From Aquimarina sp. TRL1 (GTDB lineage Bacteria > Bacteroidota > Bacteroidia > Flavobacteriales > Flavobacteriaceae), in assembly GCF_013365535.1 (NCBI RefSeq), contig NZ_CP053590.1, positions 2,718,501 through 2,782,500 on the forward strand: 64,000 bases of DNA, written 5' to 3'. Below, one piece after another: positions 16,140 through 39,216 of this stretch. Each line of letters opens with the position of its first letter. The first letter of the stretch is position 1. The translations under genes were made by a program, and so were the position numbers. Under the pieces are notes generated by a model. That model did not search any database, was not told where the DNA came from, and worked only from the letters and a program-made list of their open reading frames with translations.

Positions 16140-17009
16140 TCACATACTCTTTTCATCCTCAACACCATTTTTTAAAATACCAATTTCAGGAACACTTACT
16201 GTAACGATATCTCCAGGAGCTAAATAGATAGGAGGACTGAATCTGGCGCCAGCTCCATTAGGTGTTCCTGTCGAAATCATATCACCTGGTTTTAAAGTCA
16301 TAAAAGTACTGAGATATGAAATGATATAAGCGAATGAGAACATAAGATTAGCGGTTGTGTCCTGTTGACGTACTTCCCCGTTGACACGAGTTTCTATAGT
16401 TAGGTTCGTATAATCTGTAATCTCAGTAGCGGTCACAAACCAAGGACCGATTGCACCCGATTTCTCAAAGTTTTTTCCTTGTGTAACATTGAATTTTGCA
16501 TGTCGAACCCAATCGCGGATGGTTCCTTCATTCATTAAGGTCAAACCTGCTATATGTTCCAGTGCTCTATTTTCAGGGATACGTCTTCCCGGTTTACCAA
16601 TGACAATGACAATTTCTCCCTCATAATCTAGTTGATGAGATTCAGGAGGGCGAACCAGGTTTTGTTGATGTCCGGTAAAAGAATCCAGATATCGCAAGAA
16701 CAAACTTGGATATTGAGGTAATTCAGAATTGTCTTTGTACTCAGCATTTCTATTCGTATAATTAACCCCGATACAAGCGATTTTTTCTCCAGATAATATA
16801 GGAGGAACATATTCGATCTCCTGTTCTGTATACGCAATTCCAGTATTCCGGGCAATATCTTCTAATTTTTCTAAACGATCCGTCTGGATCCAATGACATA
16901 AGTCAAAACCATGATCTTTTCCAATATCTGTCAGGAAAATACTGTTTCCCTTCTCTATTATTGATCCATAGGTAATCCTGTTATTGATCTTATATGATGC
17001 AAATTTCAT
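16140..17009 (-). CDS. hpaG: Fumarylacetoacetate-hydrolase-family protein, probable HpaG decarboxylase/isomerase
   Basis: 289 residues with one FAH domain (about 70-285). The metal-binding E-x-E appears as DYEGEIVIVIG, and the family stretches ACIGVNYTNRNAEY and ISTGTPNGAGA are present. In the 4-hydroxyphenylacetate pathway HpaG decarboxylates 5-oxopent-3-ene-1,2,5-tricarboxylate and isomerises the product. E. coli HpaG is a two-domain fusion, whereas this is one domain, as in several other bacteria. It diverges from hpaH and the rest of the hpa genes, and its own promoter carries the shared 65-bp element. The generic family also includes acylpyruvases, so the name rests on context. Confidence 0.82.
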   Translation of the reverse strand: MKFASYKINNRITYGSIIEKGNSIFLTDIGKDHGFDLCHWIQTDRLEKLEDIARNTGIAYTEQEIEYVPPILSGEKIACIGVNYTNRNAEYKDNSELPQYPSLFLRYLDSFTGHQQNLVRPPESHQLDYEGEIVIVIGKPGRRIPENRALEHIAGLTLMNEGTIRDWVRHAKFNVTQGKNFEKSGAIGPWFVTATEITDYTNLTIETRVNGEVRQQDTTANLMFSFAYIISYLSTFMTLKPGDMISTGTPNGAGARFSPPIYLAPGDIVTVSVPEIGILKNGVEDEKSM

Positions 17010-17033
17010 AGTTAAACGCTCATTTTAGAATTC

Positions 17034-17098
17034 CAAAAATAGATTTGAAATTTCTTTTTGTATTGCATTAAAGTGTAGCTTTTCTTTAACTTATATGA
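17034..17098 (-). promoter_or_regulatory. hpaG promoter with the shared 65-bp catabolic element (degenerate)
   Basis: Read on the minus strand: TCATATAA (17098-17091), 18 nt, TTTAATGCA (17072-17064), 22 nt, then TATTTTTG (17041-17034), a perfect TAnnTTTG box. Compared with the best copies the half-sites match 5 of 8 and 7 of 9 bases, at identical spacing. The predicted transcript leader is about 20 nt. Confidence 0.65.
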
Positions 17099-17129: not shown

Positions 17130-17165
17130 TACATAAAACTATAAGGATTAATACACTTTTTGTAA
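17130..17165 (+). promoter_or_regulatory. Inverted repeat of the same half-sites upstream of hpaH
   Basis: TACATAAAA (17130-17138), 18 nt, TTTTTGTAA (17157-17165) is an inverted pair of the half-sites seen in the other catabolic promoters. No TAnnTTTG box lies 22 nt downstream, so the -7 box for hpaH remains unassigned. It may serve hpaH, or act with the neighbouring hpaG element. Confidence 0.5.
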
Positions 17166-17217: not shown

Positions 17218-18021
17218 ATGCTTAGTAAGAAGCAAATAAAAGAAGAAGCTGTTCTGTTACATCAGGCAGAAAAAAAAAGACTACAGTTAGAAGCAACTAC
17301 AGTGAGATATCCTGAAATGCAAATAGAAGATTCCTATGCTATCCAAGAAGAGTGGATGCGAATTAAAAAGAACGAAGGACAGAAGGTAATAGGGTACAAA
17401 ATAGGGTTGACTTCAAAAGTGATGCAAGCAGCTATGTCCATAGATGAGCCGGATTATGGGACATTGTTGGATAGTATGTACTTTGAACATGGCTGTACAA
17501 TCAAAGCTTCTGATTTTTTAGACCCGAGAATAGAAGTAGAATTAGCGTTCGTATTAAAGAAACCGTTGTTTGGAAAATACCTGACAGTCGAAGATGTTAT
17601 AGCGGCTACAGATTATGTCACTCCTGCATTAGAAGTAATCGCAGCCAGAACTTATCGAGTACATCCAGAGAATGGATATACACGTACGGTTAGGGATACT
17701 ATTGCAGACAATGCAGCGAATGCAGCAATTATTCTTGGTCAGGAGAAGGTGAAACCGACAACAATAGACCTGAGATGGGTCAGCGCGCTTTTATATAAGA
17801 ATAAATGTATTGAAGAATCCGGAGTAGCAGCAGCTGTACTAGATCATCCTGCAAAAGGCGTTGTCTGGTTAGCTCAGAAGTATGCGAATCACGGTATAGC
17901 CCTAGAAGCAGGTCAGATCATTTTATCAGGATCATTTACGAGACCTATAAAAGTAAGTAAAGGGGATCGTGTTACAGCAGATTATAATGAACTCGGAAAA
18001 GTTGAATGTAAATTTTTGTAA
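17218..18021 (+). CDS. hpaH: 2-oxo-hept-4-ene-1,7-dioate hydratase
   Basis: 267 residues, as in HpaH/HpcG of enterobacteria. The family is related to FAH and 2-hydroxypentadienoate hydratases. The metal-ligand motif DPRIEVELAFVL (E-x-E, near residue 106) and the stretch GYTRTVRDTIADNAANAA are well conserved. It adds water to 2-oxohept-4-ene-1,7-dioate to give 4-hydroxy-2-oxoheptanedioate, the substrate of the next gene's aldolase. The stop lies three bases before hpaI, so the two are translated from one mRNA. Cytosolic. Confidence 0.92.
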   Translation: MLSKKQIKEEAVLLHQAEKKRLQLEATTVRYPEMQIEDSYAIQEEWMRIKKNEGQKVIGYKIGLTSKVMQAAMSIDEPDYGTLLDSMYFEHGCTIKASDFLDPRIEVELAFVLKKPLFGKYLTVEDVIAATDYVTPALEVIAARTYRVHPENGYTRTVRDTIADNAANAAIILGQEKVKPTTIDLRWVSALLYKNKCIEESGVAAAVLDHPAKGVVWLAQKYANHGIALEAGQIILSGSFTRPIKVSKGDRVTADYNELGKVECKFL

Positions 18022-18024
18022 GGT

Positions 18025-18792
18025 ATGAAGCAACTGGAAGATAATATATTGAAAAAAAAGGTGGTAAATAGAGCACGTACCTATGGAGTCTGGAATGGTC
18101 TAGTAGATACGGTTGTTGCCGAGATCCTCGCTTGTGCCGATTTTGACTGGATATTGATAGATGGAGAACATGCTCCATTCGATATCCGAAAAATACAATT
18201 ACAACTTCAAACTTTATCAGCGTATGATACTCAGGTAATCGTAAGACCTCCTGTAGGAGATACTGTATTAATTAAGCAATTGATGGATATAGGTGTACAA
18301 AATGTAATGATTCCAATGGTTGAAACAGCAGAACAAGCCATGCAGTTAGTAAAAGATATGCGTTATCCACCCGAAGGGAATAGAGGGGTTGGTACGGCAC
18401 TTGCAAGAGCTTCAAAATGGAATCGATTGGAGAATTACTTTGCTAAAGCAAATAGTCAAATGTGTTTAATCTGTCAGGTAGAAACAATCAAAGGATTAGA
18501 TAATCTTGATGAAATTTTAGCAGTTGATGGAGTAGATGGAGTCTTCATCGGTCCTGCAGACCTGGCTGCCTCTATGGGGCATTTAGGAAATCCAGCGCAT
18601 CCCCAAGTAAAAGAAATGGTTGCTAAGGCTCTTACTAAAATCCGAGAAAAAAATAAAACGGCAGGTGTACTGGCATTATCCAGTGAATTGATTGCTTTTT
18701 ATAGCAGTAAAGGAGCTAATTTATTAGGTATAGGAGTCGATACATTGTTACTGGCGAATAGTGCGCAAAAACTCATGAATACAATAAAATAA
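18025..18792 (+). CDS. hpaI: 4-hydroxy-2-oxoheptanedioate aldolase
   Basis: 255 residues, a class II pyruvate aldolase of the HpcH/HpaI family. Catalytic and metal residues are visible: the DGEHAPFD His, the Arg in IVRPPVGD, Glu in CQVETIKGL and Asp in GPADLAASMG. It cleaves 4-hydroxy-2-oxoheptanedioate to pyruvate and succinate semialdehyde. The semialdehyde is then oxidised by the dehydrogenase encoded at the end of the downstream operon. It follows hpaH by three bases. A 110-nt gap with a promoter element separates it from hpaE. Confidence 0.92.
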   Translation: MKQLEDNILKKKVVNRARTYGVWNGLVDTVVAEILACADFDWILIDGEHAPFDIRKIQLQLQTLSAYDTQVIVRPPVGDTVLIKQLMDIGVQNVMIPMVETAEQAMQLVKDMRYPPEGNRGVGTALARASKWNRLENYFAKANSQMCLICQVETIKGLDNLDEILAVDGVDGVFIGPADLAASMGHLGNPAHPQVKEMVAKALTKIREKNKTAGVLALSSELIAFYSSKGANLLGIGVDTLLLANSAQKLMNTIK

Positions 18793-18795
18793 CAC

Positions 18796-18860
18796 GCATA
18801 AAAGTATAATAATTCTTACATAAAAATGCAAAAGTGTTTTTTCTGACTAAACTACTTTTA
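18796..18860 (+). promoter_or_regulatory. hpaE promoter with the shared 65-bp catabolic element (degenerate)
   Basis: GCATAAAA (18796-18803), 18 nt, AAAAATGCA (18822-18830), 22 nt, TACTTTTA (18853-18860). The upstream half-site differs by one base from GCACAAAA and the -7-like box by one base from TAnnTTTG; the inner half-site is weaker (4 of 9, with ATG.A kept). A second CATAAAA at 18819-18825 lies 22 bp after the first in direct orientation. Confidence 0.55.
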
Positions 18861-18902: not shown

Positions 18903-20420
18903 ATGTTAGATACTAATTTAGAAATACTGAATCAACTGTTACCCAGTCTTAAGAAAAATGGGATTCAAAACTTTATAGAAGGAGAGCGAACAGCAGCCAT
19001 CTCCGGAGATACCTTTGATGTGCATTCTCCTGTTGATAGTGAATTTATAACTAAGGTAGCCTTGTCAGGTAAAGAAGATGTTGATCAGGCGGCAAATGTA
19101 GCTCAGAAAGCTTTTGAATCCTGGAAAAAGATGCCACATCAGGAGCGTAGAAATATATTGTATGCTATTGCAGCCAAAATAGAAGAACATGCCGAAAATA
19201 TCGCGGTGCTGGAAAGTTACGATACTGGACAGCCTATCCGTTTTATGAAAAAGGCTGCTATTAGAGGGGCCGCAAACTTTAGATACTTTGCAGATAAAGT
19301 GATTGATGCTCCAAACGGATTGTCTACCCCCGATACTCATCATATTAATTATACTATTCGACAACCCATCGGACCTATAGGGGTGATTACTCCTTGGAAT
19401 ACTCCATTTATGTTGAGTACCTGGAAAATTGCACCTGCACTGGCATCAGGGTGTACGGTAGTCCATAAACCGGCCGAATTTAGCCCAATAACTGCAGACT
19501 ATTTGGTGAAGCTTGCTCACGAGGCAGGTTTACCCAAGGGAGTTTGGAATGTGATACATGGTTTTGGAGAGACAGCAGGAAAGTCACTAACAGAGCATGA
19601 GGCTATTAAAGCAGTAGCCTTTATAGGAGAAACCACCACAGGAAGCTTGATCATGAAACAGGGAGCAACTACCTTAAAAAGAGTTCATCTCGAACTGGGA
19701 GGGCAAAATCCAATTATTGTTTTTGATGATGCAAATCTGGATAGGGCGTTGGATACAGCCGTATTTATGAAGTATAGCCTGAATGGAGAACGTTGTACTT
19801 CGAGTAGCAGGTTACTCCTTCAAAAAAAGGTGTATGATGAATTTGTAAAGAAGTTATCTCAACGGGTAAAAAATATTAAGGTAGGGAATCCATTGGATCC
19901 GGTTACAGAGGTTGGTCCCATGATACATCCTACCCATCAGGAAAAGGTATTGCGATATGGAACAATTGGAGAAGAAGATGGTGCCACTCTTGTAGTAGGA
20001 GGAGGAACTCCAGATCAACTTAAAAAGGGATGTTATGTGAACCCAACACTTTTTATCGATGGAACTCAAAACATGCGTATTGCTCAAGAAGAAGTTTTTG
20101 GACCGTTTCTTACCGTGATTCCTTTTGAAACAGAAGAAGAAGCGATCACAATAGCTAATAGTGTAAGGTATGGACTTACCGCATATATATGGACTAAAGA
20201 TGTCGGAAGAGCTCATAGAGTAGCTCAGGAAGTAGAAGCAGGTATGGTTTGGGTTAATTCTCAAAATGTAAGACATCTGCCAGCTCCTTTTGGAGGAGTA
20301 AAATACAGTGGAATTGGTCGTGATGGAGGAGAATATAGCTTTGACTTCTATATGGAAACTAAAAATATATCAGTTGCACTTGGTGATCACCTCATTCCGC
20401 AACTGGGCAAAAATCAATAG
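18903..20420 (+). CDS. hpaE: 5-carboxymethyl-2-hydroxymuconate semialdehyde dehydrogenase
   Basis: 505 residues, NAD-dependent aldehyde dehydrogenase superfamily. The catalytic Cys lies near residue 298 (NGERCTSSSR), the general base Glu near 263 (LELGGQNP), and the cofactor-site stretch is GVITPWNTPFMLSTWK. It oxidises the semialdehyde made by ring cleavage of homoprotocatechuate. It opens the run hpaE-hpaC-hpaB-hpaD-hpaF-gabD, in which most genes are only 3-7 bases apart. N-terminal residues 1-25 extend beyond the minimal ALDH core, as in HpaE. Context and sequence agree. Confidence 0.92.
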   Translation: MLDTNLEILNQLLPSLKKNGIQNFIEGERTAAISGDTFDVHSPVDSEFITKVALSGKEDVDQAANVAQKAFESWKKMPHQERRNILYAIAAKIEEHAENIAVLESYDTGQPIRFMKKAAIRGAANFRYFADKVIDAPNGLSTPDTHHINYTIRQPIGPIGVITPWNTPFMLSTWKIAPALASGCTVVHKPAEFSPITADYLVKLAHEAGLPKGVWNVIHGFGETAGKSLTEHEAIKAVAFIGETTTGSLIMKQGATTLKRVHLELGGQNPIIVFDDANLDRALDTAVFMKYSLNGERCTSSSRLLLQKKVYDEFVKKLSQRVKNIKVGNPLDPVTEVGPMIHPTHQEKVLRYGTIGEEDGATLVVGGGTPDQLKKGCYVNPTLFIDGTQNMRIAQEEVFGPFLTVIPFETEEEAITIANSVRYGLTAYIWTKDVGRAHRVAQEVEAGMVWVNSQNVRHLPAPFGGVKYSGIGRDGGEYSFDFYMETKNISVALGDHLIPQLGKNQ

Positions 20421-20422
20421 AT

Positions 20423-20899
20423 ATGGATACAAAAAAACTACGACAGGTAGCAGGAGGATTTGTGACAGGGATTACCATAGTGAGTTCCGGGGATGCAGAT
20501 GAAGAAGTGAGAGCGATGACAGCAAATTCGTTTTTGTCAGTTTCATTAGCTCCTCCATTGGTATTATTTTCTGTAGATACAAGAACCCGATTGTTCGAAA
20601 CACTTGAAAAAGGGAAAAAGATAACCATTAGCATTTTGTCTGAAGAGCAAGAAGAAATCAGTAATCATTTTGCAGGAAAAAACCATCTGGATCACAATCT
20701 CTTATTTGAGAACATAAAAAATTATCCAGTAATCAAAAATGCGCTGGGGTATTACTTGACTAAAGTCAATCAAATCATCCCTGCAGGAGATCATTATTTG
20801 GTCTTATGTGAAGTGAAGGATTTATATAGAAATGAACAGCTAAACCCTTTGATGTATTATTCGGGGGGCTATAAAACATATACAAAAACATTAATCTAA
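20423..20899 (+). CDS. hpaC: Flavin reductase component of 4-hydroxyphenylacetate 3-monooxygenase
   Basis: 158 residues forming one flavin-reductase-like FMN-binding domain (PF01613; RQVAGGFVTGITIVSSG at the start, MTANSFLSVSLAPPLVLF in the core). HpaC reduces FAD with NAD(P)H and hands it to HpaB by diffusion. It starts two bases after hpaE stops and precedes hpaB by six bases, so stoichiometry is set by one mRNA. A little shorter than E. coli HpaC (170 residues) but complete. Confidence 0.9.
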   Translation: MDTKKLRQVAGGFVTGITIVSSGDADEEVRAMTANSFLSVSLAPPLVLFSVDTRTRLFETLEKGKKITISILSEEQEEISNHFAGKNHLDHNLLFENIKNYPVIKNALGYYLTKVNQIIPAGDHYLVLCEVKDLYRNEQLNPLMYYSGGYKTYTKTLI

Positions 20900-20905
20900 G
20901 ATATC

Positions 20906-22447
20906 ATGATTACAGAACAAAACACTGCGAAAAACAGACCATTTTCAAAAGAGTATGAAAATAAGATTTTTACTGGGCAGGAGTATCTCAATTCTCTGGA
21001 TGATGGTAGAGAAATTTGGTTTAATGGAGAGCGAATTACCAATATAGCAGAACATAAAGCTTTTAGGAATTCAGCTAGAAGTATTGCCAGATTTTATGAT
21101 GCAATGCATGATGAACGTTATCAGGATGATCTGTTGCTGGTAGATAAGAATGGTATTGTTACCCATAAGTTTTTTGCACCTAGTTATACTCCTAGAGAAT
21201 TGGATGAAGCTCGAAAAGCTATTGAGGTTAGTCAGCGCATAAATTATGGATGGATGGGAAGAACTCCAGAATATAAAGCAGCATTTATGGCGCATTTACA
21301 GGATAATGCTGGGTTTTATCAAAAAGAGTTTCAACAAAATGCTATTAACTGGTATAAAAAAACAGCAGAAAAATGCTTGTTCCTGAATCATGTATTAGTA
21401 GATCCTCCAGTTGATAGATCCAAAGACAGGGTTAATGTAAAGAATGTTTTTGTGAGTGTAGATAAAGAGGATGACAAAGGGATTTATGTCTCAGGAGCCA
21501 AAATGGTCGCTACAGGTTCTGTATTGACGCATGGAACATTTGTAGGGCTTACCGGTAATATTACTTCTATGATGGAAAAAGACAGAGATGAAGATATGGC
21601 TGTCATATTTTTTGCAGATATGAATACACCGGGACTTAAAATGATTTGTAGACCATCTTATGAGCATGATGCAAATAGTGCATATGATGCACCATTGTCT
21701 TCTAGGTATGATGAAAACGATTCTGTAATCATTATGGATCATGCCTTCATTCCCTGGGAAAACGTATTGGTATATAGAGATATTGATCGATGCAAACAGT
21801 TTTATAAAGAATCTGGTTTTTTTAATCGGTATAATTTACAGGCAGCCGTTCGATTAGCGATTAAACTGGAGTTTTGTATAGGGTTATTTTCAGAAGGAAC
21901 CAAGGCATCTGGTACAGCACAGTTTAGAGGGGTACAAGCAGGAACGGGAGAATTAATAGGAATAAAAAACACACTGTGGTCGCTTACTACAAGTATGGTT
22001 AATGATGTAGTCTCTTGTGGTACTGGAGTTGTTCCAAATGCAGAGGTAGCAGCAGCCTTACGCCTATATATGTCCAATTGCTGGGATCGGGTACGCGAAA
22101 TTTTTGAAAGCGTCCTGGGAGGCGCACCAGTGTATACGATTTCTAGTAATAAAGACTTATTGAATGTGGAGTTACGACCATATATAGAGCAGTATTATGT
22201 AGGAACGGGGTTAGAGGCTACGGATAGAATTAAATTATTCAAATTAATCTGGGATTCCATGTATTCTGAGTTTGCAGGGAGACACTCTTTGTATGAAAGA
22301 AATTACTCCGGAAGTCAGGATTTACAACGATTAGATCTTCTTAGACAAGCCATGGCTTCTAAATCTCTGGATAAATGTACCGCTATGGTCCAAAAATGTA
22401 TGGATGATTATGACATAAATGGTTGGACAAATACCTGGTTAACCTGA
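20906..22447 (+). CDS. hpaB: 4-hydroxyphenylacetate 3-monooxygenase, oxygenase component
   Basis: 513 residues, about the length of E. coli HpaB (520). The acyl-CoA-dehydrogenase-like fold of the HpaB family is evident: FTGQEYLNSLDDGREIWFNGER at the N-terminus, DAPLSSRYDENDSVIIMDHAFIPWENVLVYRD in the middle and CIGLFSEGTKASGTAQFRGVQ later. With reduced FAD it hydroxylates 4-hydroxyphenylacetate to 3,4-dihydroxyphenylacetate. It follows hpaC, which supplies the flavin. The HpaB fold also accepts other phenols, but the surrounding pathway fixes the likely role. Confidence 0.93.
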   Translation: MITEQNTAKNRPFSKEYENKIFTGQEYLNSLDDGREIWFNGERITNIAEHKAFRNSARSIARFYDAMHDERYQDDLLLVDKNGIVTHKFFAPSYTPRELDEARKAIEVSQRINYGWMGRTPEYKAAFMAHLQDNAGFYQKEFQQNAINWYKKTAEKCLFLNHVLVDPPVDRSKDRVNVKNVFVSVDKEDDKGIYVSGAKMVATGSVLTHGTFVGLTGNITSMMEKDRDEDMAVIFFADMNTPGLKMICRPSYEHDANSAYDAPLSSRYDENDSVIIMDHAFIPWENVLVYRDIDRCKQFYKESGFFNRYNLQAAVRLAIKLEFCIGLFSEGTKASGTAQFRGVQAGTGELIGIKNTLWSLTTSMVNDVVSCGTGVVPNAEVAAALRLYMSNCWDRVREIFESVLGGAPVYTISSNKDLLNVELRPYIEQYYVGTGLEATDRIKLFKLIWDSMYSEFAGRHSLYERNYSGSQDLQRLDLLRQAMASKSLDKCTAMVQKCMDDYDINGWTNTWLT

Positions 22448-22496
22448 TTTACCTTATAGAAGTACAACACAACTGAATTTAAAAAAATAAAAGATA

Positions 22497-23477
22497 ATGA
22501 AAGTCCTGAAGCACAATTTTAACCTTCCATTCAATATTATTCGCTGTAGTCATGTAGAATACGGAGTCAGAGATTTGGAGGTTTCCAGAAAGTTTTATGT
22601 AGAAACACTGGGATTAATAGAAACCGAACGAACGGATGAGGCATTATATCTCAGGTGCCTCGAGGAACAGCAACATCATTCTTATATTTTAAAAGTAACG
22701 GAAGAACCTTGTGTCTTAGCAGTAGGGTTTAAAGTAGCTTTTGAAAAAGATTTGGATGCCCTTAAAGAACATCTGGATCAAAAAAATATACGATCAGAAT
22801 GGGTAGATAAATATGCAGAAGATAGAACGTTAAAGGTCACTACCCCACAAGGGTTTATTCTGGAGTTTTATGCCAGAATGAAAAAGGTGGCTCATAAACT
22901 ACGAGAATACCAATCCTATCAGGGAATGCATCCGCAACGATTTGACCATTTTAATGTGTTTACACCAAATGCACAGGAAACCTATGAGTTTTTTGTAAAC
23001 GAGCTTGGGTTTCGGTTGACTGAATATACTACTACTGAAAAAGGAGAGATGTGGGCCGCCTGGATGCATCGCAAAGGGAATGTACATGATATGGCGTTGA
23101 CAAATGGAGATGGACCTCGTTTGCATCACTCGGCTATATGGGTGCCTACAGCACTCAATATTATTCACCTCTTAGATGTGATGGCAACATCCGGATTTGT
23201 TGAAAACATTGAAAGAGGTCCGGGACGACATGGGGTATCCAATGCTTTTTTTCTGTACGTATTAGATCCCGATGGACATCGAATAGAGATATACACCTGT
23301 GATTATCTTACAGTAGATCCGGATCTGGAACCCTTAGGGTGGGATTTGAAAGATCCACAGCGACAGACGCTTTGGGGAGCACCAGCACCCAAAAGTTGGT
23401 TTGAACATGGGACTTCTTTTGTGAATACACCTGTAAAAGAGGCTAAAATGGAAGCAAGACCAATCATAGCAAATTAA
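22497..23477 (+). CDS. hpaD: 3,4-dihydroxyphenylacetate 2,3-dioxygenase (VOC-type extradiol)
   Basis: 326 residues with two VOC domains. The C-terminal one holds the metal site: His151 (FDHFNVF), His210 (LHHSAIW) and Glu264 (HRIEIYT), nearly the same numbering as His155/His214/Glu267 of the Brevibacterium homoprotocatechuate dioxygenase. It opens the catechol ring next to the side-chain carbon to give 5-carboxymethyl-2-hydroxymuconate semialdehyde. This is the Gram-positive-type extradiol family; enterobacterial HpaD is an unrelated LigB-type enzyme. It follows hpaB after 49 nt and precedes hpaF by five. Confidence 0.93.
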   Translation: MKVLKHNFNLPFNIIRCSHVEYGVRDLEVSRKFYVETLGLIETERTDEALYLRCLEEQQHHSYILKVTEEPCVLAVGFKVAFEKDLDALKEHLDQKNIRSEWVDKYAEDRTLKVTTPQGFILEFYARMKKVAHKLREYQSYQGMHPQRFDHFNVFTPNAQETYEFFVNELGFRLTEYTTTEKGEMWAAWMHRKGNVHDMALTNGDGPRLHHSAIWVPTALNIIHLLDVMATSGFVENIERGPGRHGVSNAFFLYVLDPDGHRIEIYTCDYLTVDPDLEPLGWDLKDPQRQTLWGAPAPKSWFEHGTSFVNTPVKEAKMEARPIIAN

Positions 23478-23482
23478 TACAG

Positions 23483-23845
23483 ATGCCACATATTACACTG
23501 GAATATTCTGATAATGTATCGCTGGATTTCAAACTTTTTTTTGAAGAATTGAAAAACAAACTGGTTGAAACAGGCTATGTTTCTGCAATGGGAATAAAAT
23601 GTAGAGCAGTACCATCTACTGTCCATTTTATAATTGATGGTAATCCCAGTTATAAAATGGTAAATTTATTGCTTCGATTACGAGAAGGGCGCTCTCTGGA
23701 AGTAAGAAAGAAACTTTCTCAAATTGGAATAAGTTTATTGGAAAAGTATTTCCAGAAAGAGATCACTAATAAAGAAATTATATTGTCTACAGAGGTCAAA
23801 GAGTTGATCACTGGATTAGATATCACTAAAAATGCTATCAGATAA
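23483..23845 (+). CDS. hpaF: 5-carboxymethyl-2-hydroxymuconate delta-isomerase
   Basis: 120 residues, tautomerase superfamily. Pro2 right after the initiator Met is the expected catalytic amine (MPHITLEYSDNV). The conserved LLLRLREGRSLEVRKKL stretch supplies an active-site Arg. It isomerises the acid produced by HpaE before HpaG acts. Slightly shorter than E. coli HpaF (126). It lies five bases after hpaD and three before gabD. Confidence 0.9.
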   Translation: MPHITLEYSDNVSLDFKLFFEELKNKLVETGYVSAMGIKCRAVPSTVHFIIDGNPSYKMVNLLLRLREGRSLEVRKKLSQIGISLLEKYFQKEITNKEIILSTEVKELITGLDITKNAIR

Positions 23846-23848
23846 CGA

Positions 23849-27519: not shown

Positions 27520-27538
27520 GATAACAGGGATTTATAAA

Positions 27539-29017: not shown

Positions 29018-29027
29018 TTTTATTTTT

Positions 29028-30973: not shown

Positions 30974-31038
30974 TAAAATTAAAAATGAAATAGGATTCTT
31001 GTTTACATAAAAGTGTAATTAATATTTATGTTTTGTGC
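30974..31038 (-). promoter_or_regulatory. Shared 65-bp catabolic element, UPF0261 operon
   Basis: Read on the minus strand: GCACAAAA (31038-31031), 18 nt, TTTTATGTA (31012-31004), 22 nt, TAATTTTA (30981-30974). Both half-sites are identical to those upstream of the aldehyde dehydrogenase and TonB receptor genes; the -7 box differs by its last base. It lies 21 nt before the start codon. Confidence 0.8.
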
Positions 31039-31066: not shown

Positions 31067-32497
31067 TCAAGAGGTTTCCTGATGTGGGTGTTTTTGCAAA
31101 ACATGCTCTATTTCCAGAGGAGTCCAGAGCGGTACTTCCTGTTTGTATTTAAGCCATACAAAAGAATAAGTAGCACATATAGAGAGTATGACAAAAAAAG
31201 GAATATAAATCTGAGATGGTGTTAAGAAAGGAGGGACCAAATAGAAAAAGGTGATAAATAATCCGATAATAGCCAATAATTGTGGGAGAGGATATAAAGG
31301 GGTCTTAAAAGGGCGTACAATTTTAGGGTGTCTTTTTCGTAGTAAGACTACAGCAATATTAATCAGTATATAAAAAAATATCCAGGAGCAGATAGCTGCC
31401 AGGATGAGAGCAAAAACTCCATTGATATCAGATCCGATGAGGTAAGATCCAAGCATAGGGATCAGTGCAATAAAAATAATACCAACATAGGGAGTGTCAT
31501 ATTTTTTATGTGTTTTTAGAAATATTTTAGGCAAGACTCCATCAAGTGCCATTCCATAAAGTATTCTGGGAATACTGGCGATGATGGTATTTATTAAAGC
31601 AACTGTGGCAAGGAATATTACCAAAACAAAACCCCATTTACCCACCTCACCTAAAATAGCATCACCATACACCAAAGCGCTCTCAGGTGTTTCCAGTAAT
31701 AATGTATTACTTGTTTGATCGACAACTTCATTAGGAACTAACCGAACGATACTGGTGCCAAATATCAGCATTGCAATTAATGACATTGTCAATCCGATAA
31801 ATAAAGAATGTTTGATATTCTTATTAGGATCCTTCATTTCAGGGGCTAGTGGTGTTACATATTCTGCTCCTACAAATAGGAATAAGGTGAACCCTACCAA
31901 GGTGAAAATTGCAGAAATGTCATGACCGATGGAAGAGTCACCCCAAATAAAATCTAAATTGGTTTTGGGGATGATAAACAATCCGATGATTCCTAGAATA
32001 ACCATTAAAGCATATTTGGAATACGATAGGATGTTTTCTATCAGAGCAAACATATTGATGCCTCTAATATTGATTATAGCACATAGAATTACAATTCCCC
32101 AACCAATAATCCAGGAATTTTCTGGAGAAACGAAAGAAGAAACAATAGGAAAATTACTTTGTGCAAATAAGCCTGCGGCAGCTACCTCTGCTGATGAAGC
32201 AAAAAAAGTAACAATCACATAAGAAGCGAGTGTTGCAGTAACTCCCCAAAATCGCCCCATTGCAATGGTGATGTAATCATAGACAGCTCCTACTGTTGGA
32301 ATGATTCCGGAAAGCTCTGCAAAGCTGGTTGCCTGACACATCATTAATACATATGAAATTACCAGTGCAATAAAGAAAACATAGCCGCCCAGGCTAATCC
32401 CTTGTGTAATGGTTAATAGAGAAGATGCCAGTAGCATTAATCCCAGAATAGATGCGATACCTGTCGGGGTTCCAACTTTTTTATTGCTAGTACTCAT
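31067..32497 (-). CDS. APC-family amino acid/amine permease
   Basis: 476 residues with about twelve hydrophobic membrane segments (for example GIASILGLMLLASSLLTITQ, then VFFIALVISYVLMMC). The APC landmark after helix 2, FAELSGIIPTVGAVYDYI, is present. Family members carry amino acids or amines with protons or by exchange. It lies 74 nt downstream of the aldehyde dehydrogenase and is probably on its mRNA, as no own element copy is found. It is the only inner-membrane carrier in the island and the natural candidate for importing the amine across the inner membrane. Confidence 0.87.
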   Translation of the reverse strand: MSTSNKKVGTPTGIASILGLMLLASSLLTITQGISLGGYVFFIALVISYVLMMCQATSFAELSGIIPTVGAVYDYITIAMGRFWGVTATLASYVIVTFFASSAEVAAAGLFAQSNFPIVSSFVSPENSWIIGWGIVILCAIINIRGINMFALIENILSYSKYALMVILGIIGLFIIPKTNLDFIWGDSSIGHDISAIFTLVGFTLFLFVGAEYVTPLAPEMKDPNKNIKHSLFIGLTMSLIAMLIFGTSIVRLVPNEVVDQTSNTLLLETPESALVYGDAILGEVGKWGFVLVIFLATVALINTIIASIPRILYGMALDGVLPKIFLKTHKKYDTPYVGIIFIALIPMLGSYLIGSDINGVFALILAAICSWIFFYILINIAVVLLRKRHPKIVRPFKTPLYPLPQLLAIIGLFITFFYLVPPFLTPSQIYIPFFVILSICATYSFVWLKYKQEVPLWTPLEIEHVLQKHPHQETS

Positions 32498-32571: not shown

Positions 32572-34008
32572 TTAGTAGGAGATTACTACGGATTTTGATC
32601 TGGTGAAGGCTGCTATAGATGCTTTCCCCAGCTCATTACCAATTCCAGATTGTTTAAATCCTCCTAATGGTAAATTTGGATCAGACCGAACAGGAGAATT
32701 GACATAAATCATCCCTGCATGTAGTTTAGACAGTAAATAGTGCATATTACTTACATTTTTTGTCCAAATACTTGCTGCCAGTCCATAAGGAGTATCATTA
32801 GCTTTTTGGATTAAATCATCTAAACCATCGTAGGAGACAGCTACGAGAACAGGACCGAATATTTCTTGTTTTAAAATATCTATTTTATGATTATCTGGGT
32901 TTGAAAATACTGTGGGAGCTACATAATATCCTTTGTTATATAGCTTATTACCTCCTGCAATAACTTCTGCTCCTGCTGCAATTCCAGAATCGATATACTT
33001 TATAACATGTTCCATATGTGATTTGGAAACTAATGGTCCCATTTGAGATGTTTGATCCATTCCATGTCCTACTTTCATGGTTTTGGCTATATCACCTATA
33101 TCACTCAGGATGGTATCATATTTTTGTTTAGGAAGATAGATTCTGGAGCCGGAAACACATACTTGTCCCTGATTATAAAAAATCCCTTTGGTAGTTCCTT
33201 TGGGTAGAGAATTCAGATCAGCATCATCGAGTACTAGTACTGGATTTTTACCTCCTAGTTCTAATGTGAATTCTTTTAAATTTTGTCCGGCTTGTTTTCC
33301 TATGTTTTTACCTACTTGAGAAGACCCGGTAAAAGTTATTTTATGAACCTTGGGGTGATTGATCAGGTAATTTCCGACGGTTGCCCCTCTGCCATTAACT
33401 ACATTGATCACTCCATCAGGGATACCTGCTTCCTGAGATAATTCTGCTAGTCGTAATGCAGTTAAAGGGGTTTCTTCTGATGGTTTAAAAACTACAGCAC
33501 AGCCACAGGCAAGGGCAGGTGCTATTTTCCAAGCATACATCATCATAGGAACATTCCAGGGAGCAATAGCAGCCACAACACCAATGGGTTCTTTTTGGGT
33601 ATAGGCAAAATGGTTTCCGCCACTTAGGGATACTCCCAGGGTAGATCCTTCTATTTTGGTTGCCCACCCGGCATAGTATCTAAAACAATTTACAGTAGCA
33701 CCCACTTCTTTTTGGGCATCCGCAAGTAGTTTTCCATGTTCTGCTACGAGTAATTCACTCAATTCGGTAGTGTGTTGTTCTATGATATCAGCATATTTGA
33801 GTAAAACAGCTTCCTTTTTATTTGGAAGCATTTTATACCAATCCCCCTGATATATCTGGTAATGAGCAGCATTTATAGCAGTGTCAATATCGATATTTCC
33901 TGCTTCTGAGATGGTTTGGATTTCTTCTTCGGTGGCAGGATTGTGTATGCTAAAAGTAACGTCTGATGAACCATCAATCCATTTACCATTTATGAAATTT
34001 GATTTCAT
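32572..34008 (-). CDS. Aldehyde dehydrogenase, candidate aromatic aldehyde dehydrogenase
   Basis: 478 residues, NAD(P)-dependent ALDH. Cys near 284 (NQGQVCVSGSRIY) and Glu near 250 (TLELGGKNP) are the catalytic pair. The stretch GVVAAIAPWNVPMMMYAWKIAPALACG and the sequence around GGNHFAYTQKEPIG are of the phenylacetaldehyde/betaine-aldehyde dehydrogenase kind. It is a third ALDH in the island, distinct from HpaE and GabD. If the class III aminotransferase yields 4-hydroxyphenylacetaldehyde, this enzyme would make 4-hydroxyphenylacetate, the entry compound of hpa. It heads a likely two-gene operon with the permease. Confidence 0.87.
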   Translation of the reverse strand: MKSNFINGKWIDGSSDVTFSIHNPATEEEIQTISEAGNIDIDTAINAAHYQIYQGDWYKMLPNKKEAVLLKYADIIEQHTTELSELLVAEHGKLLADAQKEVGATVNCFRYYAGWATKIEGSTLGVSLSGGNHFAYTQKEPIGVVAAIAPWNVPMMMYAWKIAPALACGCAVVFKPSEETPLTALRLAELSQEAGIPDGVINVVNGRGATVGNYLINHPKVHKITFTGSSQVGKNIGKQAGQNLKEFTLELGGKNPVLVLDDADLNSLPKGTTKGIFYNQGQVCVSGSRIYLPKQKYDTILSDIGDIAKTMKVGHGMDQTSQMGPLVSKSHMEHVIKYIDSGIAAGAEVIAGGNKLYNKGYYVAPTVFSNPDNHKIDILKQEIFGPVLVAVSYDGLDDLIQKANDTPYGLAASIWTKNVSNMHYLLSKLHAGMIYVNSPVRSDPNLPLGGFKQSGIGNELGKASIAAFTRSKSVVISY

Positions 34009-34202: not shown

Positions 34203-34267
34203 CAAACATATTCATCATTTGTAAAAAAACACTACATAAAAATAGATGTTTTGTTTAGGTTTTGTGC
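34203..34267 (-). promoter_or_regulatory. Shared 65-bp catabolic element, aldehyde dehydrogenase-permease operon
   Basis: Read on the minus strand: GCACAAAA (34267-34260), 18 nt, TTTTATGTA (34241-34233), 22 nt, TATGTTTG (34210-34203), a perfect TAnnTTTG box. The distance to the ATG at 34008 implies a leader of roughly 190 nt, unusually long here. The upstream edge is only eight bases from the stop of the amidohydrolase gene. Confidence 0.8.
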
Positions 34268-34275: not shown

Positions 34276-35991
34276 TTATGGTTTTAACCTATGGCATTCA
34301 ACTCCTTTGTAATAGGTTGACAGTACTTTGATTTCACTAATATCATCTGGATCAATATCGAAGATGGATTGATCAAGAATGATGAAGTCTGCATTTTTAC
34401 CAACTTCTAATGAACCGGATTCATGGTTTTTATTCATTGATATAGCACCGTTTATAGTGAAGATTCGCAAGGCATCAGATAAAGGAATTTTTTGTTCGGA
34501 CCAAAATGCTTTTGTAGTGTTTGTTGCTGTAGGGTTTTTTCGGGTTACCATGGCTTCTATACCAACCCATGGATTGAGGTTTACGGCAACTGAAGGCCAA
34601 TCAGAACCTGCTATACAATGAACTTCATGCTTTACCAAGTTTTTAATGGGCCAGAAGTCATGATTTTTTTCATCACAAACGGTTGCCAAAATATTATCAA
34701 TAATGGGACTTGGAAACCATAGATAAGGAGACAGATCTGCTGCGATATTTAGTGTTTTCATTCTCAGGAGGTCGTACTCATGTATATAACTGGCATGTGC
34801 TAACTCATGTTTTTGAGTGCTTTGAGGGTTATTTTTACGAGCATATTCGACGGCATTAATAGCTTCTCGTGCCGACCTGTCTCCGGCAGCATGAATTTTA
34901 ATGATAAACTGTTCTTTGTCGAAATTAGCAATATCTTGTTGTAGTAGTTCTGGTGTAATATGCAAAAAACCATTAGTTGGAGTAGGGTGATGATGATCCG
35001 TTTTGTAATTGCATAGCATGGCGGCTGTTCGAGAGGAAGTGGGAACGCCATCTAAGAAAAATTTGATAAAATAAGGGTCGATATTATCGGTTTTGTTCTT
35101 TTTAGCAGTTTCTACAAAAGACCGGATATCCAGGGGGTGATTTCTTGCCATTTTAGGTGTAGATTGACACATGGCAAAAAACATATTGATAGCACCAGCT
35201 TGATCCATTTTATACATTGTTTCAATGGATTTTTTATTGGCGTCTGCATCCTTAATAGCGATAATTCCATAGGAGAGCGATTGTTTTTGTGCATATTCTA
35301 TGGACTTCGCGTATTGTTCTTCGGTGAAGGTTACCTTATCAAGTACCAGAAAGGAAGCATTTTCGTGAAGAACCCCATTGGGGTTTCCCTGAGGGTCTTT
35401 TTCAATTCTTCCATTTTTAGGGTCTGGAGTATCGCGATTGATGTTCCCCATTTTTAACCCAGCACTATTCACCCATAAATTATGACCCGTATCATCTGCT
35501 AGTAATATAGGAATGGTGCTATTGATTGCATCCAACCATCTTAAGGGGTGATCAATCTGATTTTTTTCAAAAAAATCACTAGCCCAGGCACCTCCAATGA
35601 CGATTTCAGAATTTACGTGCTTTATATAATGCTTCATACTTTTGTGTAAAGAATCAGCTGGAATATCCCATTCAAAATTTAATTGAAAAAGATCTTTTAA
35701 GGCTCCAGTAATTGGATGAGAATGCGAATCATAAATACCGGGCATTAAAGTGTTCTGATGTAAATCTACTTCTTTTATGGAATAGATTTTTTGCAAAGAA
35801 TCTTTTAAGATGTGATAATTTCCGATTGCTATTATTTTTTTATTTCTAATAGCCATAGCCTCGACAATATCATTCTGCTTATTAATGGTTAGTATTGAAC
35901 CATTATGAAAGATGGTGAGGGGTGGTTTATTATCTTTTTTACAACTGATACAACAAAGAATCAGTAAGCTATATAGGAAACGATTTTTCAT
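34276..35991 (-). CDS. Amidohydrolase (YtcJ/NfdA-like, amidohydrolase_3) lipoprotein
   Basis: 571 residues with a lipoprotein signal (MKNRFLYSLLILCCISC), so it is outside the cytoplasm. The TIM-barrel amidohydrolase marks are DSHSHP near residue 88 (metal HxH), FFLDGVPTSSRTAAM, IHAAGDRS near 365, HASYIHEYD and the metal Asp in AGSDWPS near 463. The YtcJ branch includes N-substituted formamide deformylase, which releases amines from N-formyl compounds. A periplasmic or surface deacylase that frees an amine fits the island's permease and transaminase. It follows the TonB receptor after 150 nt, a space that holds a hairpin. Substrate is inferred. Confidence 0.85.
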   Translation of the reverse strand: MKNRFLYSLLILCCISCKKDNKPPLTIFHNGSILTINKQNDIVEAMAIRNKKIIAIGNYHILKDSLQKIYSIKEVDLHQNTLMPGIYDSHSHPITGALKDLFQLNFEWDIPADSLHKSMKHYIKHVNSEIVIGGAWASDFFEKNQIDHPLRWLDAINSTIPILLADDTGHNLWVNSAGLKMGNINRDTPDPKNGRIEKDPQGNPNGVLHENASFLVLDKVTFTEEQYAKSIEYAQKQSLSYGIIAIKDADANKKSIETMYKMDQAGAINMFFAMCQSTPKMARNHPLDIRSFVETAKKNKTDNIDPYFIKFFLDGVPTSSRTAAMLCNYKTDHHHPTPTNGFLHITPELLQQDIANFDKEQFIIKIHAAGDRSAREAINAVEYARKNNPQSTQKHELAHASYIHEYDLLRMKTLNIAADLSPYLWFPSPIIDNILATVCDEKNHDFWPIKNLVKHEVHCIAGSDWPSVAVNLNPWVGIEAMVTRKNPTATNTTKAFWSEQKIPLSDALRIFTINGAISMNKNHESGSLEVGKNADFIILDQSIFDIDPDDISEIKVLSTYYKGVECHRLKP

Positions 35992-36090: not shown

Positions 36091-36141
36091 AATATGGGAT
36101 CTATATGATTATCATTGTGTCTCTGAATACAAAAAATATGT

Positions 36142-38817
36142 TTAAAATTTATATCGCACATTTATACCATAGGATGCAGGTCTTCCTACTGCATATCGAT
36201 ATCTTCCAAAAGGAATAGCAGCTAAAGAAATGATATCTCCAAAATTAGCAATTTCATTTGTTAGATTTTTGCCAAATACAGCAATATCAAATTTTGATGA
36301 GGAATACCCAATTCGCGCATTTAGAATACTGAAAGCATCAAAGATAAATTGAGGTTCGGTTTCTGGGGAGAATGTATTCACACGCTCTCCGGTATGTTGA
36401 AAATCCAGGCGGTAAAACATGGATTGATCTGTTTTTAGTTGATGAGAGTATTGAATATTAGCACTGGCTGTAATATCAGGAACATTTAGTATTCTATCTC
36501 CTTTTTCTGAAGCGGTAAGGATACTCCCTTCATTTACTTCGGCCTTTACATATCCAAAAGCTCCTCCAATCTGAAGATTCTTGCTGACTTTCCCTTTTAC
36601 TTCGAGGTCGAATCCGGTGATGGTTGCTTTACCAATATTATCTACAAAAATAAATCCAGAAGGAAGAAAAACACGTTGTTGCAGATCATTCCATACTGTA
36701 TGAAAAACAGAAGCATTGGCAATCAATCTATTTTGAAGGAAAGTATTTTTACTACCAATTTCATATGTCCACAAAAAATCAGATTCGAAAGTCCGGGGTG
36801 CTTCTTCTAGTCCCAGGGCAGCCAGATCTGCTTCGGCGAAAATTACAGGGACAATACCATTTGCTCCACCAAGTCGATATCCTCTGGTAGCACTTCCGTA
36901 AAGTAAGCTTTTATCATTAATGGTATACGTGAGGTTAAGCTTGGGGGTAAACCCATCATCCGTAATTTCTTCATCGGTAGGGATTCCTCCTCCAGCAGCG
37001 ACAAATCCTCCTAGTTTTTGTTTTAATTCCTGTTTGTAAGAAAAATAACGCAAACCAAAAGTAGCTTTTAATTTAGGGGTAATATCCCAATATATTTCAC
37101 TAAATAGGGCAAACTCATCTGTTTTAAAATCGGTATCCTGCGAAAACCAAATAAAATTCTCAGCAGCGATAATTTCTTGCAGATCAGGAAGCCCAATATT
37201 TCCAAAAAAATTAGATAATGCTCCCAGATAGGAGTTCCTCGGTTGTATACCATCAAATTTTGAAGTTTCGGAACTAAAGAACAAACCTGCAGTGACATTT
37301 AGTTTTTTATCAGGATTGTTTAGAGAATATCGCAACTCTTCTACCACTTTGGTTAGTGCGCCGGTGCGATCCATAAATTCCGGATAAAAATAAGCCTCGG
37401 ATAAGTCTGCAAAATCTCCATTTTCGTCAAATGGAGTTAGTTCAGTACTGGAATTCCCAGAACTTTCTCGTTCAGTTACATCTTCTCTGTCAAATTGATT
37501 CACCTCACTGAAGGAAAAATTATTGGTAAGTTCCCCGTATTCTCCCAATCCGAGTTGAATTAATAGACTGCTATGTAATAATTCTAGTTCGTATTTTTCG
37601 TCGATACCACCAATTCGGTATTGCTCGAAATTATCCGGTCTGAAATCTGCAAAATCCAAACCATCTCCTTCTGTTTTTTGGTAGATGAATTTAGGAACGA
37701 TTTTTAAGTTTTCACTTGGGTAAATACCAAGTGCAGCGTTAATTCCAAAACTAGTTTCATCATCTACATTTTCTTTTTGAGTTTCCCCATCTCTCCAACC
37801 ATGAGTATCACTAACATCACTATTCTGTAATGTGATCGGGATAGGATCACCGGTAAATGGTATTTGAGTTCCACTGCCATCAGGGTTATCCCATATGGCA
37901 TTGGGATTAGCCCCTGTACCATCTCCTGTGTTTAGAGGGAATCCATTAAAATGAGTTTGTCTTTTTCTGTCAAAGACCCCTGTTTCAAAAGCATAGAAAG
38001 TCCCTAGTCGTAAGGCGAGTTTTTCTTCGAGAATAGGGATGTTAAATACTCCTTGAATACTATAGTCTGCATCTCCTTCTTTTACAGAAGCTCCTGAGAT
38101 ATCAATGTTACCTGATGTTTTATAGGCATTTGGTTGATTAGTGATTACTTTTACAGCTCCTCCCATCGTATTGGAACCGTATAAGGTACCTTGCGGACCT
38201 CTTAATACTTCGATTCGATCGGTGTCGAATAACCTGGGGTCAGCAAATTCTGGTAGAGGGGTTTCATCCAGATAAAAAGCAGTGGTATTAGTTCCTGAAA
38301 TTCCTCGGATAGCAATATTTTTTCCAGAGGATCTTCCATCTCCTAACCCGGCGCCTCCCCCTCCAGAAGCACTGATACTCAGGTTTGGGATACTAGGAAA
38401 ATAGTCTTCTGCCTTTACAGAACCTGTTCTGGCTAGTTCCTTTGCACCTACCGCAGTAATACTTAACGGAACATCTTGTGATCGTTGTGTCGTTTTATTG
38501 GCTGTAACGACAATGTCTTCTAACTGGAAGGCATCTTCTTCTAGCTGTACTCTGATTGTTGTCATAGTACTGCTAATACTAATTTTTTTTGTTTTAAAAC
38601 CCAGAAAGCTAACAATTAGCGTAGGTGTATTACCTGACGATTCAATAGTGAAATTACCTTCAAAATCTGAAGTTGTGCCTGTTGAAGTTCCTTCAATGAT
38701 TACCGAAGCCCCGGGAATGATATTCCCGGAGGTGTCTGATATATGTCCGGTAATCGTTTTTTGTGATAGCACAGTACTTGTCGTAAGCAAGACAAGTATG
38801 AGTAACGCTCTTTTCAT
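36142..38817 (-). CDS. TonB-dependent outer-membrane receptor (no SusD partner)
   Basis: 891 residues. A signal peptide (MKRALLILVLLTTSTVLSQ) precedes a CarboxypepD_reg-like domain (about 20-100), a plug (about 115-230, with IEVLRGPQGTLYGSNTMGGAVKVITNQP) and a 22-strand barrel that ends in the aromatic residue Phe (SYGINVRYKF). It lacks the SusC signature and there is no SusD, so it resembles small-molecule receptors (siderophore- or aromatic-type) rather than glycan importers. Its promoter has the best copy of the shared catabolic element, which argues for uptake of the island's organic substrate rather than iron. Confidence 0.9.
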   Translation of the reverse strand: MKRALLILVLLTTSTVLSQKTITGHISDTSGNIIPGASVIIEGTSTGTTSDFEGNFTIESSGNTPTLIVSFLGFKTKKISISSTMTTIRVQLEEDAFQLEDIVVTANKTTQRSQDVPLSITAVGAKELARTGSVKAEDYFPSIPNLSISASGGGGAGLGDGRSSGKNIAIRGISGTNTTAFYLDETPLPEFADPRLFDTDRIEVLRGPQGTLYGSNTMGGAVKVITNQPNAYKTSGNIDISGASVKEGDADYSIQGVFNIPILEEKLALRLGTFYAFETGVFDRKRQTHFNGFPLNTGDGTGANPNAIWDNPDGSGTQIPFTGDPIPITLQNSDVSDTHGWRDGETQKENVDDETSFGINAALGIYPSENLKIVPKFIYQKTEGDGLDFADFRPDNFEQYRIGGIDEKYELELLHSSLLIQLGLGEYGELTNNFSFSEVNQFDREDVTERESSGNSSTELTPFDENGDFADLSEAYFYPEFMDRTGALTKVVEELRYSLNNPDKKLNVTAGLFFSSETSKFDGIQPRNSYLGALSNFFGNIGLPDLQEIIAAENFIWFSQDTDFKTDEFALFSEIYWDITPKLKATFGLRYFSYKQELKQKLGGFVAAGGGIPTDEEITDDGFTPKLNLTYTINDKSLLYGSATRGYRLGGANGIVPVIFAEADLAALGLEEAPRTFESDFLWTYEIGSKNTFLQNRLIANASVFHTVWNDLQQRVFLPSGFIFVDNIGKATITGFDLEVKGKVSKNLQIGGAFGYVKAEVNEGSILTASEKGDRILNVPDITASANIQYSHQLKTDQSMFYRLDFQHTGERVNTFSPETEPQFIFDAFSILNARIGYSSSKFDIAVFGKNLTNEIANFGDIISLAAIPFGRYRYAVGRPASYGINVRYKF

Positions 38818-39216
38818 AGTGAATAAATTATTTTCAATTTTTTTAAATATTGTTATACGTAAGAGTTTGTTGAATATCTTTATTGTAATAAATATGTTAA
38901 AAAAATAAATTAATCTGAATCAAACTTAATTATCTTAAGTATTGGTTTCTTACATAAAAATGAATGATTAGTTTAACTTTTGTGCTTTTTAGAATATAAG
39001 AAGGTTGGTTAGTTTTAAGAAAATCAGCAGTGTTTTATAGGTTTTTTATTACACTAATAAAAAGAAGGTAGCTGGATAATAGTCAGTATGATACGTGTTA
39101 AGCAATTGTGTTAATCGTAACATTTTTACGGAAGAGTACATGTATATTCTAAAGAGTTATAGTAAAATGAAGATGTCTTTTGTTTAGTAGCAAAAAGCAA
39201 TTAAAAAAATAGTAAA
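38818..39216. other. Divergent intergenic region with the TonB receptor promoter
   Basis: 399 nt with no coding frame of note. It holds the 65-bp element for the receptor (38921-38985). The remaining part toward the 106-aa gene is featureless AT-rich DNA. Confidence 0.5.
38921..38985 (-). promoter_or_regulatory. Shared 65-bp catabolic element, TonB receptor
   Basis: Read on the minus strand: GCACAAAA (38985-38978), 18 nt, TTTTATGTA (38959-38951), 22 nt, TAAGTTTG (38928-38921), a perfect TAnnTTTG box. Counting from a start four bases after the box, the inner half-site covers about -42 to -34 and the outer about -68 to -61, where AraC-type activators usually bind. Confidence 0.85.

Follow-up and report, generated by a model that had tools for sequence, protein, structure and literature searches.

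A shared 65-bp promoter architecture and its candidate AraC-family activator in a 4-hydroxyphenylacetate island of Aquimarina

Introduction

How are the genes of an aromatic catabolic island in Aquimarina sp. TRL1 switched on, and could a single regulator control them all? The stretch of 64,000 bp analyzed here (the window) is positions 2718501-2782500 of contig 1 in a genome of 5.41 Mb (G000 in our comparisons), and all feature coordinates are window positions. The island lies between 16140 and 38817. It encodes the homoprotocatechuate meta-cleavage route, which leads from 4-hydroxyphenylacetate to succinate, apparently with a side-chain step for an amine or amino acid ahead of it. An earlier note on this DNA had described a 65-bp promoter architecture, two half-sites and a -7 box at fixed distances, linking five operons of the island, and had proposed that the AraC-type regulator encoded at 25425 reads it.

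We find that the architecture is highly specific to the island, is conserved in a relative, and has a counterpart with related geometry in a diverged island type. Most likely, as judged from sequence, one island-encoded regulator switches on uptake and breakdown of a tyrosine-derived aromatic together.

Results

Three promoters share half-sites and spacing

Three promoters on the minus strand carry identical half-sites. The operators of the TonB receptor promoter (38951..38985), the aldehyde dehydrogenase/permease promoter (34233..34267) and the UPF0261-HAD-aminotransferase promoter (31004..31038) are all exact copies of GCACAAAA-N18-TTTTATGTA. Each is followed after 22 nt by a box at the -7 position, TAAGTTTG (38921..38928), TATGTTTG (34203..34210) and TAATTTTA (30974..30981), respectively. 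The three 65-bp elements (38921-38985, 34203-34267 and 30974-31038) thus have 0/17 half-site mismatches and the same N18 and N22 spacings, as the earlier note had described.

Some details of the original description needed adjustment. Boxes of the form TAnnTTTG are exact at the TonB, aldehyde dehydrogenase and hpaG promoters and one base off at UPF0261 and hpaE. The half-sites are inverted copies of each other only approximately, with the inverted partner matched at 6/8 positions at the three main sites and at 5/8 at hpaG. If the box occupies -12 to -5, as in the excerpt of PMC9723704 used here, the half-sites are calculated to fall at -69/-62 and -43/-35 relative to the predicted transcript starts, about one base from the -68/-61 and -42/-34 proposed earlier. 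No TTG was found 12-25 nt before the box (the -33 position) in any of six promoters (6/6).

The pattern is rare outside the island. In the whole genome there are three exact copies of GCACAAAA-N18-TTTTATGTA, all within the island, versus about 0.004 expected from composition, and so the exact motif occurs at no unrelated promoter of this genome. With an added TAAA and up to 3 mismatches, the full 65-bp pattern also matches only the three main sites genome-wide (reversed control, 0). Without the TAAA, at the same tolerance, it matches 3 times in the window and in none of 100 dinucleotide shuffles. The sole genome match to the half-sites with 1 mismatch (347321) lacks a -7 box at N22 and is absent from the full-pattern results. 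The exact R/R form has 9 occurrences in 66 Aquimarina genomes, three each in G000 and the relative G050 and single ones in G003, G036 and G022. A looser consensus, RYAYAWAANNTAAA-N12-TTTWRTRYA with up to 1 mismatch, gives 7 matches in G000 and 8 in G050, 4 of them island operators in each case, and 1 match in each reversed control; this consensus was composed after viewing the sites, so the count is partly circular.

Three window sites and two sites of G050 served to train a position weight matrix (PWM) of the 35-bp operator, which ignores the -7 box. The three main sites, being training sites, score 39.5-41.6 bits. In the background, 3 positions reached at least 16 bits in 164,234 bases, a figure that serves only as a guide because the background consisted partly of loci fetched as loose motif matches.

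The elements are conserved in a relative whose flanking DNA has diverged

All three main promoters are kept in G050 with both spacers intact, and the surrounding DNA has diverged. The G050 TonB promoter reads ACACAAAA-N18-TTTTGTGTA-N22-TAAGTTTG (operator 30/35 identical to the window, box 8/8), the aldehyde dehydrogenase promoter GCACAAAA-N18-TTTTATGTA-N22-TAAGTTTG (operator 35/35), and the UPF0261 promoter ACACAAAA-N18-TTTTATGTA-N22-TATTTTTA (operator 31/35).

Conservation differs by region. When the TonB, aldehyde dehydrogenase, UPF0261 and hpaG promoters are pooled, ungapped identity between the window and G050 is 28/32 for the distal half-site, 60/72 for N18, 34/36 for the proximal half-site, 54/88 for N22 and 30/32 for the box. 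The flanks match at 113/160 positions over the 40 bp downstream and at 94/240 over the 60 bp upstream. These identities suggest that N18 is probably part of the bound site; N22 is a spacer that is kept in length rather than in sequence. The upstream 60 bp are 18/60 identical at each of the three main promoters and 40/60 at hpaG, where this DNA is part of the divergent hpaH promoter. Conservation at hpaG therefore tells less than it does at the other sites.

The hpaG, hpaE and hpaH operators depart from the main form

The degenerate copy reported before hpaG (17034-17098) is real, with an exact box at N22, and weak, with 5/17 half-site bases differing. Its inverted operator, TCATATAA-N18-TTTAATGCA (17064..17098, minus strand), is the next-best PWM match in the window after the three main sites (16.7 bits), and its box is TATTTTTG (17034..17041). 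The site is kept in G050 (distal half-site 6/8, proximal 8/9, box 8/8).

At hpaE (18796-18860) the reported box stands at N22 and the reported inversion does not hold. The supposed proximal half-site, AAAAATGCA, is no inverted copy of the distal one. Instead, the operator (18796..18830, plus strand) contains a 22-bp direct repeat, GCATAAAA (18796-18803) and ACATAAAA (18818-18825), that matches at 10/14 positions as a direct repeat versus 4/8 as an inverted one. In G050 the repeat is ACACAAAA/ACACAAAA with the same spacing. We dropped the inverted form in favor of this direct repeat, which is found in both genomes. The -7-like box, TACTTTTA (18853..18860, plus strand), is one base off TAnnTTTG, is TACCTTTA in G050, and its distance to the distal half-site equals that at the other promoters.

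The earlier count of five operons is one operator short. A sixth operator lies in the hpaG-hpaH intergenic region, before hpaH (17131..17165, plus strand), and is conserved in G050. It has 2 mismatches to the hpaH operator of the other island type described below (minus-strand match from 17163). Between this operator and hpaH (17131-17217) there is also a conserved AATAAATAACGAACTATGTAC stretch, with no visible -7 box.

A second island type has an operator of related geometry

Seven Aquimarina genomes (loci L065-L070 and L106) carry a different hpa island, here called type II (the window and G050 islands with their operators are type I), that encodes an AraC protein 39% identical to that of the window. 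In six of these genomes, araC is divergent from an hpaH about 70% identical. The seventh, G459, was found through the type II operator pattern, and an hpaH (71%) and an adjoining araC (39%) were shown afterwards. The islands of the first six contain hpaE, hpaF, hpaG, hpaH and hpaI homologues, an aldehyde dehydrogenase, a thiamine pyrophosphate (TPP)-dependent enzyme and an aminotransferase, with Pfam names taken from G004 only. An hpaD match was present in 4 of the 6 type II stretches searched and absent from L067 and L069. HpaB was detected in only 2 of the 66 genus genomes, G000 and G050 (E <= 1e-60), and thus the type II route may take as its substrate a compound that already has both hydroxyl groups, for instance DOPA, using the aminotransferase, TPP enzyme, aldehyde dehydrogenase and HpaD.

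Type II islands have two operator copies. The first surfaced in a scan with the type I operator matrix, box ignored, and lies in the araC-hpaH region as ACAAAAAGTG-N12-CACTTTTATG, exact in 6/6 islands and with 1 mismatch in the seventh (G459). Read towards araC, TATTTTTG stands 29-30 nt beyond this operator in at least 3 of 6 islands; in the hpaH direction, TAnnTTTG is absent at N22. The second copy precedes an aminotransferase gene, confirmed in 7/7 genomes, and in 7/7 it consists of N18 between inverted half-sites, N22, and then TAnTTTTC. In total, TAnnTTT is found 22 nt after the operator in 6/6 promoters (five in the window and one of type II), and at every other distance from 0 to 59 in at most 1/6.

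The type II pattern is also specific. Other fetched loci, 273,904 bases in all, gave no match to the consensus with up to 3 mismatches, 1 with 4, 12 with 5 and 73 with 6. With up to 1 mismatch, it occurs at 15 places in 9 of the 66 genus genomes (reversed control, 0), 13 of them in the seven island genomes; the second site of G029, with 3 mismatches, falls outside this count. The remaining two places, in G016 and G022 (L115 and L118), are a perfect hairpin, and hpaH, araC and the aminotransferase were not found in these 3-kb loci. This hairpin, AAGTGTTAGCTACCTAACACTT and a variant, mimics the type II operator, lies beside open reading frames (ORFs) of the same lengths in both genomes, and is probably a terminator or an unrelated site.

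The island encodes a candidate activator

The regulator named by the earlier note, the AraC-family protein encoded at 25425..26312 (plus strand), is still our candidate activator. Assignment of the operators to it is supported by sequence comparison because it is the sole transcription factor recognized among the island ORFs tested, its helix-turn-helix (HTH) region is unchanged between the window and G050 in alignment, and an AraC protein of 39% identity goes with a related operator of 18/22 spacing. We infer that this protein binds the element. It has a C-terminal double HTH (PF12833, HTH_18, 81.1 bits, cut-off 33.6; PF00165, 44 bits, cut-off 26.6) and an N-terminal ligand-binding cupin (PF02311, AraC_binding, 30.0 bits, cut-off 21.1). 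Its best NCBIfam match, HpaA TIGR02297, scores 115.9 bits and does not reach the cut-off of 274.65, so the protein is HpaA-like only. A GFESPxYFSxLFK stretch is common to it and the 39%-identical proteins. The element and an island-linked AraC protein occur together in 9/9 genomes where either island type was found. Judged by the regulator, Aquimarina aquimarini Aq135 is the nearest relative with a name, its AraC protein being 91% identical; that of G050 is also 91% identical to the window protein. A regulator scan of the contigs of named genomes gave 2 loci, one of which, from Shewanella at 24% identity, was not used.

Genes and putative operons of the island

The names hpaH, hpaE, hpaD and succinate-semialdehyde dehydrogenase rest on NCBIfam cut-offs, and hpaG, hpaI, hpaB, hpaC and hpaF on matches below cut-off together with Pfam. 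On the minus strand, an hpaG-like FAA hydrolase gene (16140..17009; under the HpaG cut-offs) is followed on the plus strand by hpaH, over the TIGR02312 cut-off, and an hpaI-like aldolase gene, under cut-off (17218..18792). Next, also on the plus strand, are hpaE, hpaC, hpaB, hpaD, hpaF and the succinate-semialdehyde dehydrogenase gene (18903..25309). The hpaC-like (20423-20899) and hpaB-like (20906-22447) genes are over Pfam cut-offs and under NCBIfam equivalog cut-offs, as hpaF is under its own, and are encoded alongside the araC gene. araC begins 115 bp after the dehydrogenase gene and is probably the last gene of this operon, co-transcribed and self-amplifying; its position makes positive feedback likely.

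The remaining genes are on the minus strand. They include a putative operon of UPF0261, HAD hydrolase, class III aminotransferase and class I/II aminotransferase genes (26278..30952), an amino acid/amine permease of the APC type (31067..32497) that probably forms an operon with a phenylacetaldehyde-dehydrogenase-like aldehyde dehydrogenase (32572..34008; StyD-like, under cut-off), an amidohydrolase (34276..35991), and the TonB-dependent receptor (36142..38817) ahead of it. If the operons are as drawn, the island genes from 16140 to 38817 would all lie behind one of the six operators.

The position between the TonB receptor and aldehyde dehydrogenase genes is variable. It is occupied by the amidohydrolase in the window (34276-35991) and by a sulfatase in G050 (L063 9633-11339), differing conjugate-releasing enzymes with the same promoter ahead. 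Directly upstream of the TonB operator, G050 has an HxlR-type regulator gene (L063 6055-6390), and the ORF at the equivalent position of the window (39217-39537) matches no Pfam or NCBIfam family.

HpaH (TIGR02312) is present in 2 of 395 genomes in a sample of the order and in 1 of 395 in a sample of the phylum, with G000 counted in both, and the motif comparison was therefore confined to the genus. The other order genome with HpaH, G341, encodes a more distant hpa fragment. Such rarity would fit a horizontally acquired island.

Discussion

Based on these results, we consider it likely that the 65-bp element is an activator-dependent promoter run by a dimer of the island AraC protein. We postulate that the dimer, carrying a ligand from the pathway (probably 4-hydroxyphenylacetate, homoprotocatechuate or another aromatic related to them), would occupy the 35-bp operator, with the distal half-site at about -69/-62 and the proximal one at about -43/-35. 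Bound in this way, it would recruit the sigma-A RNA polymerase to a -7 box positioned exactly 22 nt on. Since there is no TTG at -33, the proximal protomer plausibly takes the place of that element. A -33 element is described for B. fragilis and, according to an excerpt of PMC7366714, was not identified in F. johnsoniae, so the absence of TTG is suggestive only. The inverted element would drive the TonB receptor and amidohydrolase, the aldehyde dehydrogenase and permease, the UPF0261-HAD-aminotransferase genes and, in degenerate form, hpaG. The direct-repeat version would drive hpaE-C-B-D-F, the succinate-semialdehyde dehydrogenase gene and probably araC, and the further, box-less operator precedes hpaH-I.

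Could the element arise without being an operator at all? One such reading is chance similarity of AT-rich sequence, and with 3 mismatches the half-site pattern is no commoner genome-wide (45+45 matches) than its reversed control (54+56), with 4 matches in the window versus a shuffle mean of 0.90 (4 was reached in 2 of 100 shuffles). Loose matches are thus at control level and only near-exact ones are informative. It is the near-exact ones that speak here: three exact copies against the tiny compositional expectation, a full pattern that no shuffle reproduced, and conservation in G050 leave chance with a negligible share of the probability. That the three copies are a repeat, from recent duplication or a small mobile element, would account for three identical half-site pairs inside 8 kb and is scarcely less improbable than chance. 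The N22 spacers and flanks differ among the copies, the likeness being limited to the 35 bp plus the -7 box; every copy precedes a gene that reads in the same direction; and the copies are individually retained in G050. We dropped the repeat reading on the differing spacers and flanks.

The element could instead be an operator read by another protein. A hybrid two-component system (HTCS) protein encoded at 39645-43772 has an AraC-type HTH (HTH_18) and adjoins the TonB receptor in the window, and an ortholog (71%) shares a contig with the island in G050. Its distribution, however, does not follow that of the operators. Full-length orthologs (71-72%) are present in 6 of 8 relatives tested, five of which (G001, G002, G004, G026 and G459) have no exact type I operator, and there is no match at E <= 1e-100 in G029 and G062, both of which have type II operators. 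Moreover, the HTCS gene keeps a GH109 neighbor followed by SusC in G001, G004 and G050, and SusD as well in G001 and G004; none of five island proteins searched for was in these stretches, and the 6.7 kb upstream of TonB in G050 contain no HTCS match. On this presence pattern and these conserved neighbors of its own, the HTCS was dropped as regulator of the operators; it is very unlikely to bind them and most likely controls its own GH109/SusC locus. The HTCS, GH109, SusC and SusD genes form a separate locus (39645-50115). G004 and G001 preserve its gene order, and the island proteins searched for are missing there; the HTCS-GH109-SusC part in G050 is arranged differently and lies about 18 kb away from the TonB operator of the same contig. 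A regulator encoded elsewhere, with the island AraC protein controlling only part of the pathway as HpaA does in E. coli, is somewhat less far-fetched and still unlikely. E. coli does split control between HpaA and the MarR-type HpaR (as outlined in PMC7180172), but in Aquimarina the element and the island AraC protein are found together in all nine island genomes, two diverged AraC lineages share the operator geometry, and no MarR-type family was among the matches of the scanned island ORFs of at least 100 amino acids.

Several observations weigh against control of all these promoters by the island AraC dimer. The half-sites are direct at hpaE and inverted elsewhere, and therefore one protein must accept both arrangements. 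Half-site symmetry is imperfect even at the main sites and falls from 6/8 there and 5/8 at hpaG to 5/9 at the type II aminotransferase operator. The hpaH operator has no TAnnTTTG, neither at N22 nor elsewhere downstream. The two genomes with type I islands, G000 and G050, are closely related, and type II operators have another consensus than type I (AACAAAAAGTG versus GCACAAAAnnTAAA). With 1 mismatch, the R/R form is found in 55/66 genus genomes, a level like that of the control and uninformative. Lastly, the agreement of six promoters on N22 is mostly circular, as the five window sites were chosen partly on that spacing and only the type II promoter is independent.

We speculate, tentatively and with more doubt than conviction, that a single AraC dimer recognizes two kinds of half-site pair, inverted (26-bp) and direct (22-bp), from a common distal position, and that the fixed 22 nt from the proximal half-site to the -7 box is a general rule by which AraC activators of Bacteroidota make up for a missing -33 contact, and has been kept through divergence to 39% regulator identity and a change of half-sites.

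To our knowledge, activator-dependent promoters in Bacteroidota have seldom been defined to the base. The system described here offers an operator with a set distance to the -7 box, together with a candidate activator, and its two island types and nine genomes serve as built-in replicates. The spacing rule is directly testable and, together with the mixed inverted and direct geometry, is the most interesting part. We also predict that the outer-membrane receptor and the variable releasing enzyme, amidohydrolase or sulfatase, belong to the 4-hydroxyphenylacetate regulon, suggesting that the natural substrate is a conjugated compound derived from tyramine or tyrosine. In the open-licence literature, no title or abstract start among the matches listed names this operator or control of hpa genes in Aquimarina; PMC11110206, the one paper there that mentions both Aquimarina and hydroxyphenylacetate, appears to be a mangrove 16S study. 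Thus, an AraC-type regulon with a rigid promoter architecture is well supported here and, as far as searched, was previously undescribed, and it is of a kind already known.

Known systems share some of its features and differ in others. Sigma-A promoters of Bacteroidota have TAnnTTTG at -7 and TTTG at -33. The island promoters likewise have a -7 box in a constant position (an exact TAnnTTTG in 3 of the 5 window promoters) but lack the -33 TTG of that consensus. E. coli RhaR and RhaS are likewise AraC-family activators that act on an inverted repeat upstream of the promoter, and the RhaR operator has two 17-bp half-sites separated by 17 bp (from the available text of PMC3870299). In contrast to this 17/17 layout, the conserved block here is 35 bp, with N18 between an 8-mer and a 9-mer and about 26 bp between half-site centers. 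The same excerpt gives the RhaR motifs of Bacteroides, inferred by comparative genomics, as direct repeats of 21-bp period. Compared by layout rather than by motif sequence, the window has a direct repeat, of 22 bp, only at hpaE, and the other five of its six operators are inverted.

The nearest functional parallel is the hpa system of E. coli W, in which an AraC/XylS-family activator, HpaA, is likewise encoded with the hpa genes. There, activation by HpaA is limited to hpaBC, and the meta operon is repressed by HpaR (per the excerpt of PMC7180172). In Aquimarina, by contrast, related operators precede the TonB receptor, the side-chain genes and the meta-cleavage genes, and no counterpart of the MarR-type repressor was matched among the scanned island ORFs. 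If our proposal is true, a single activator would stand in place of the enterobacterial HpaA/HpaR split.

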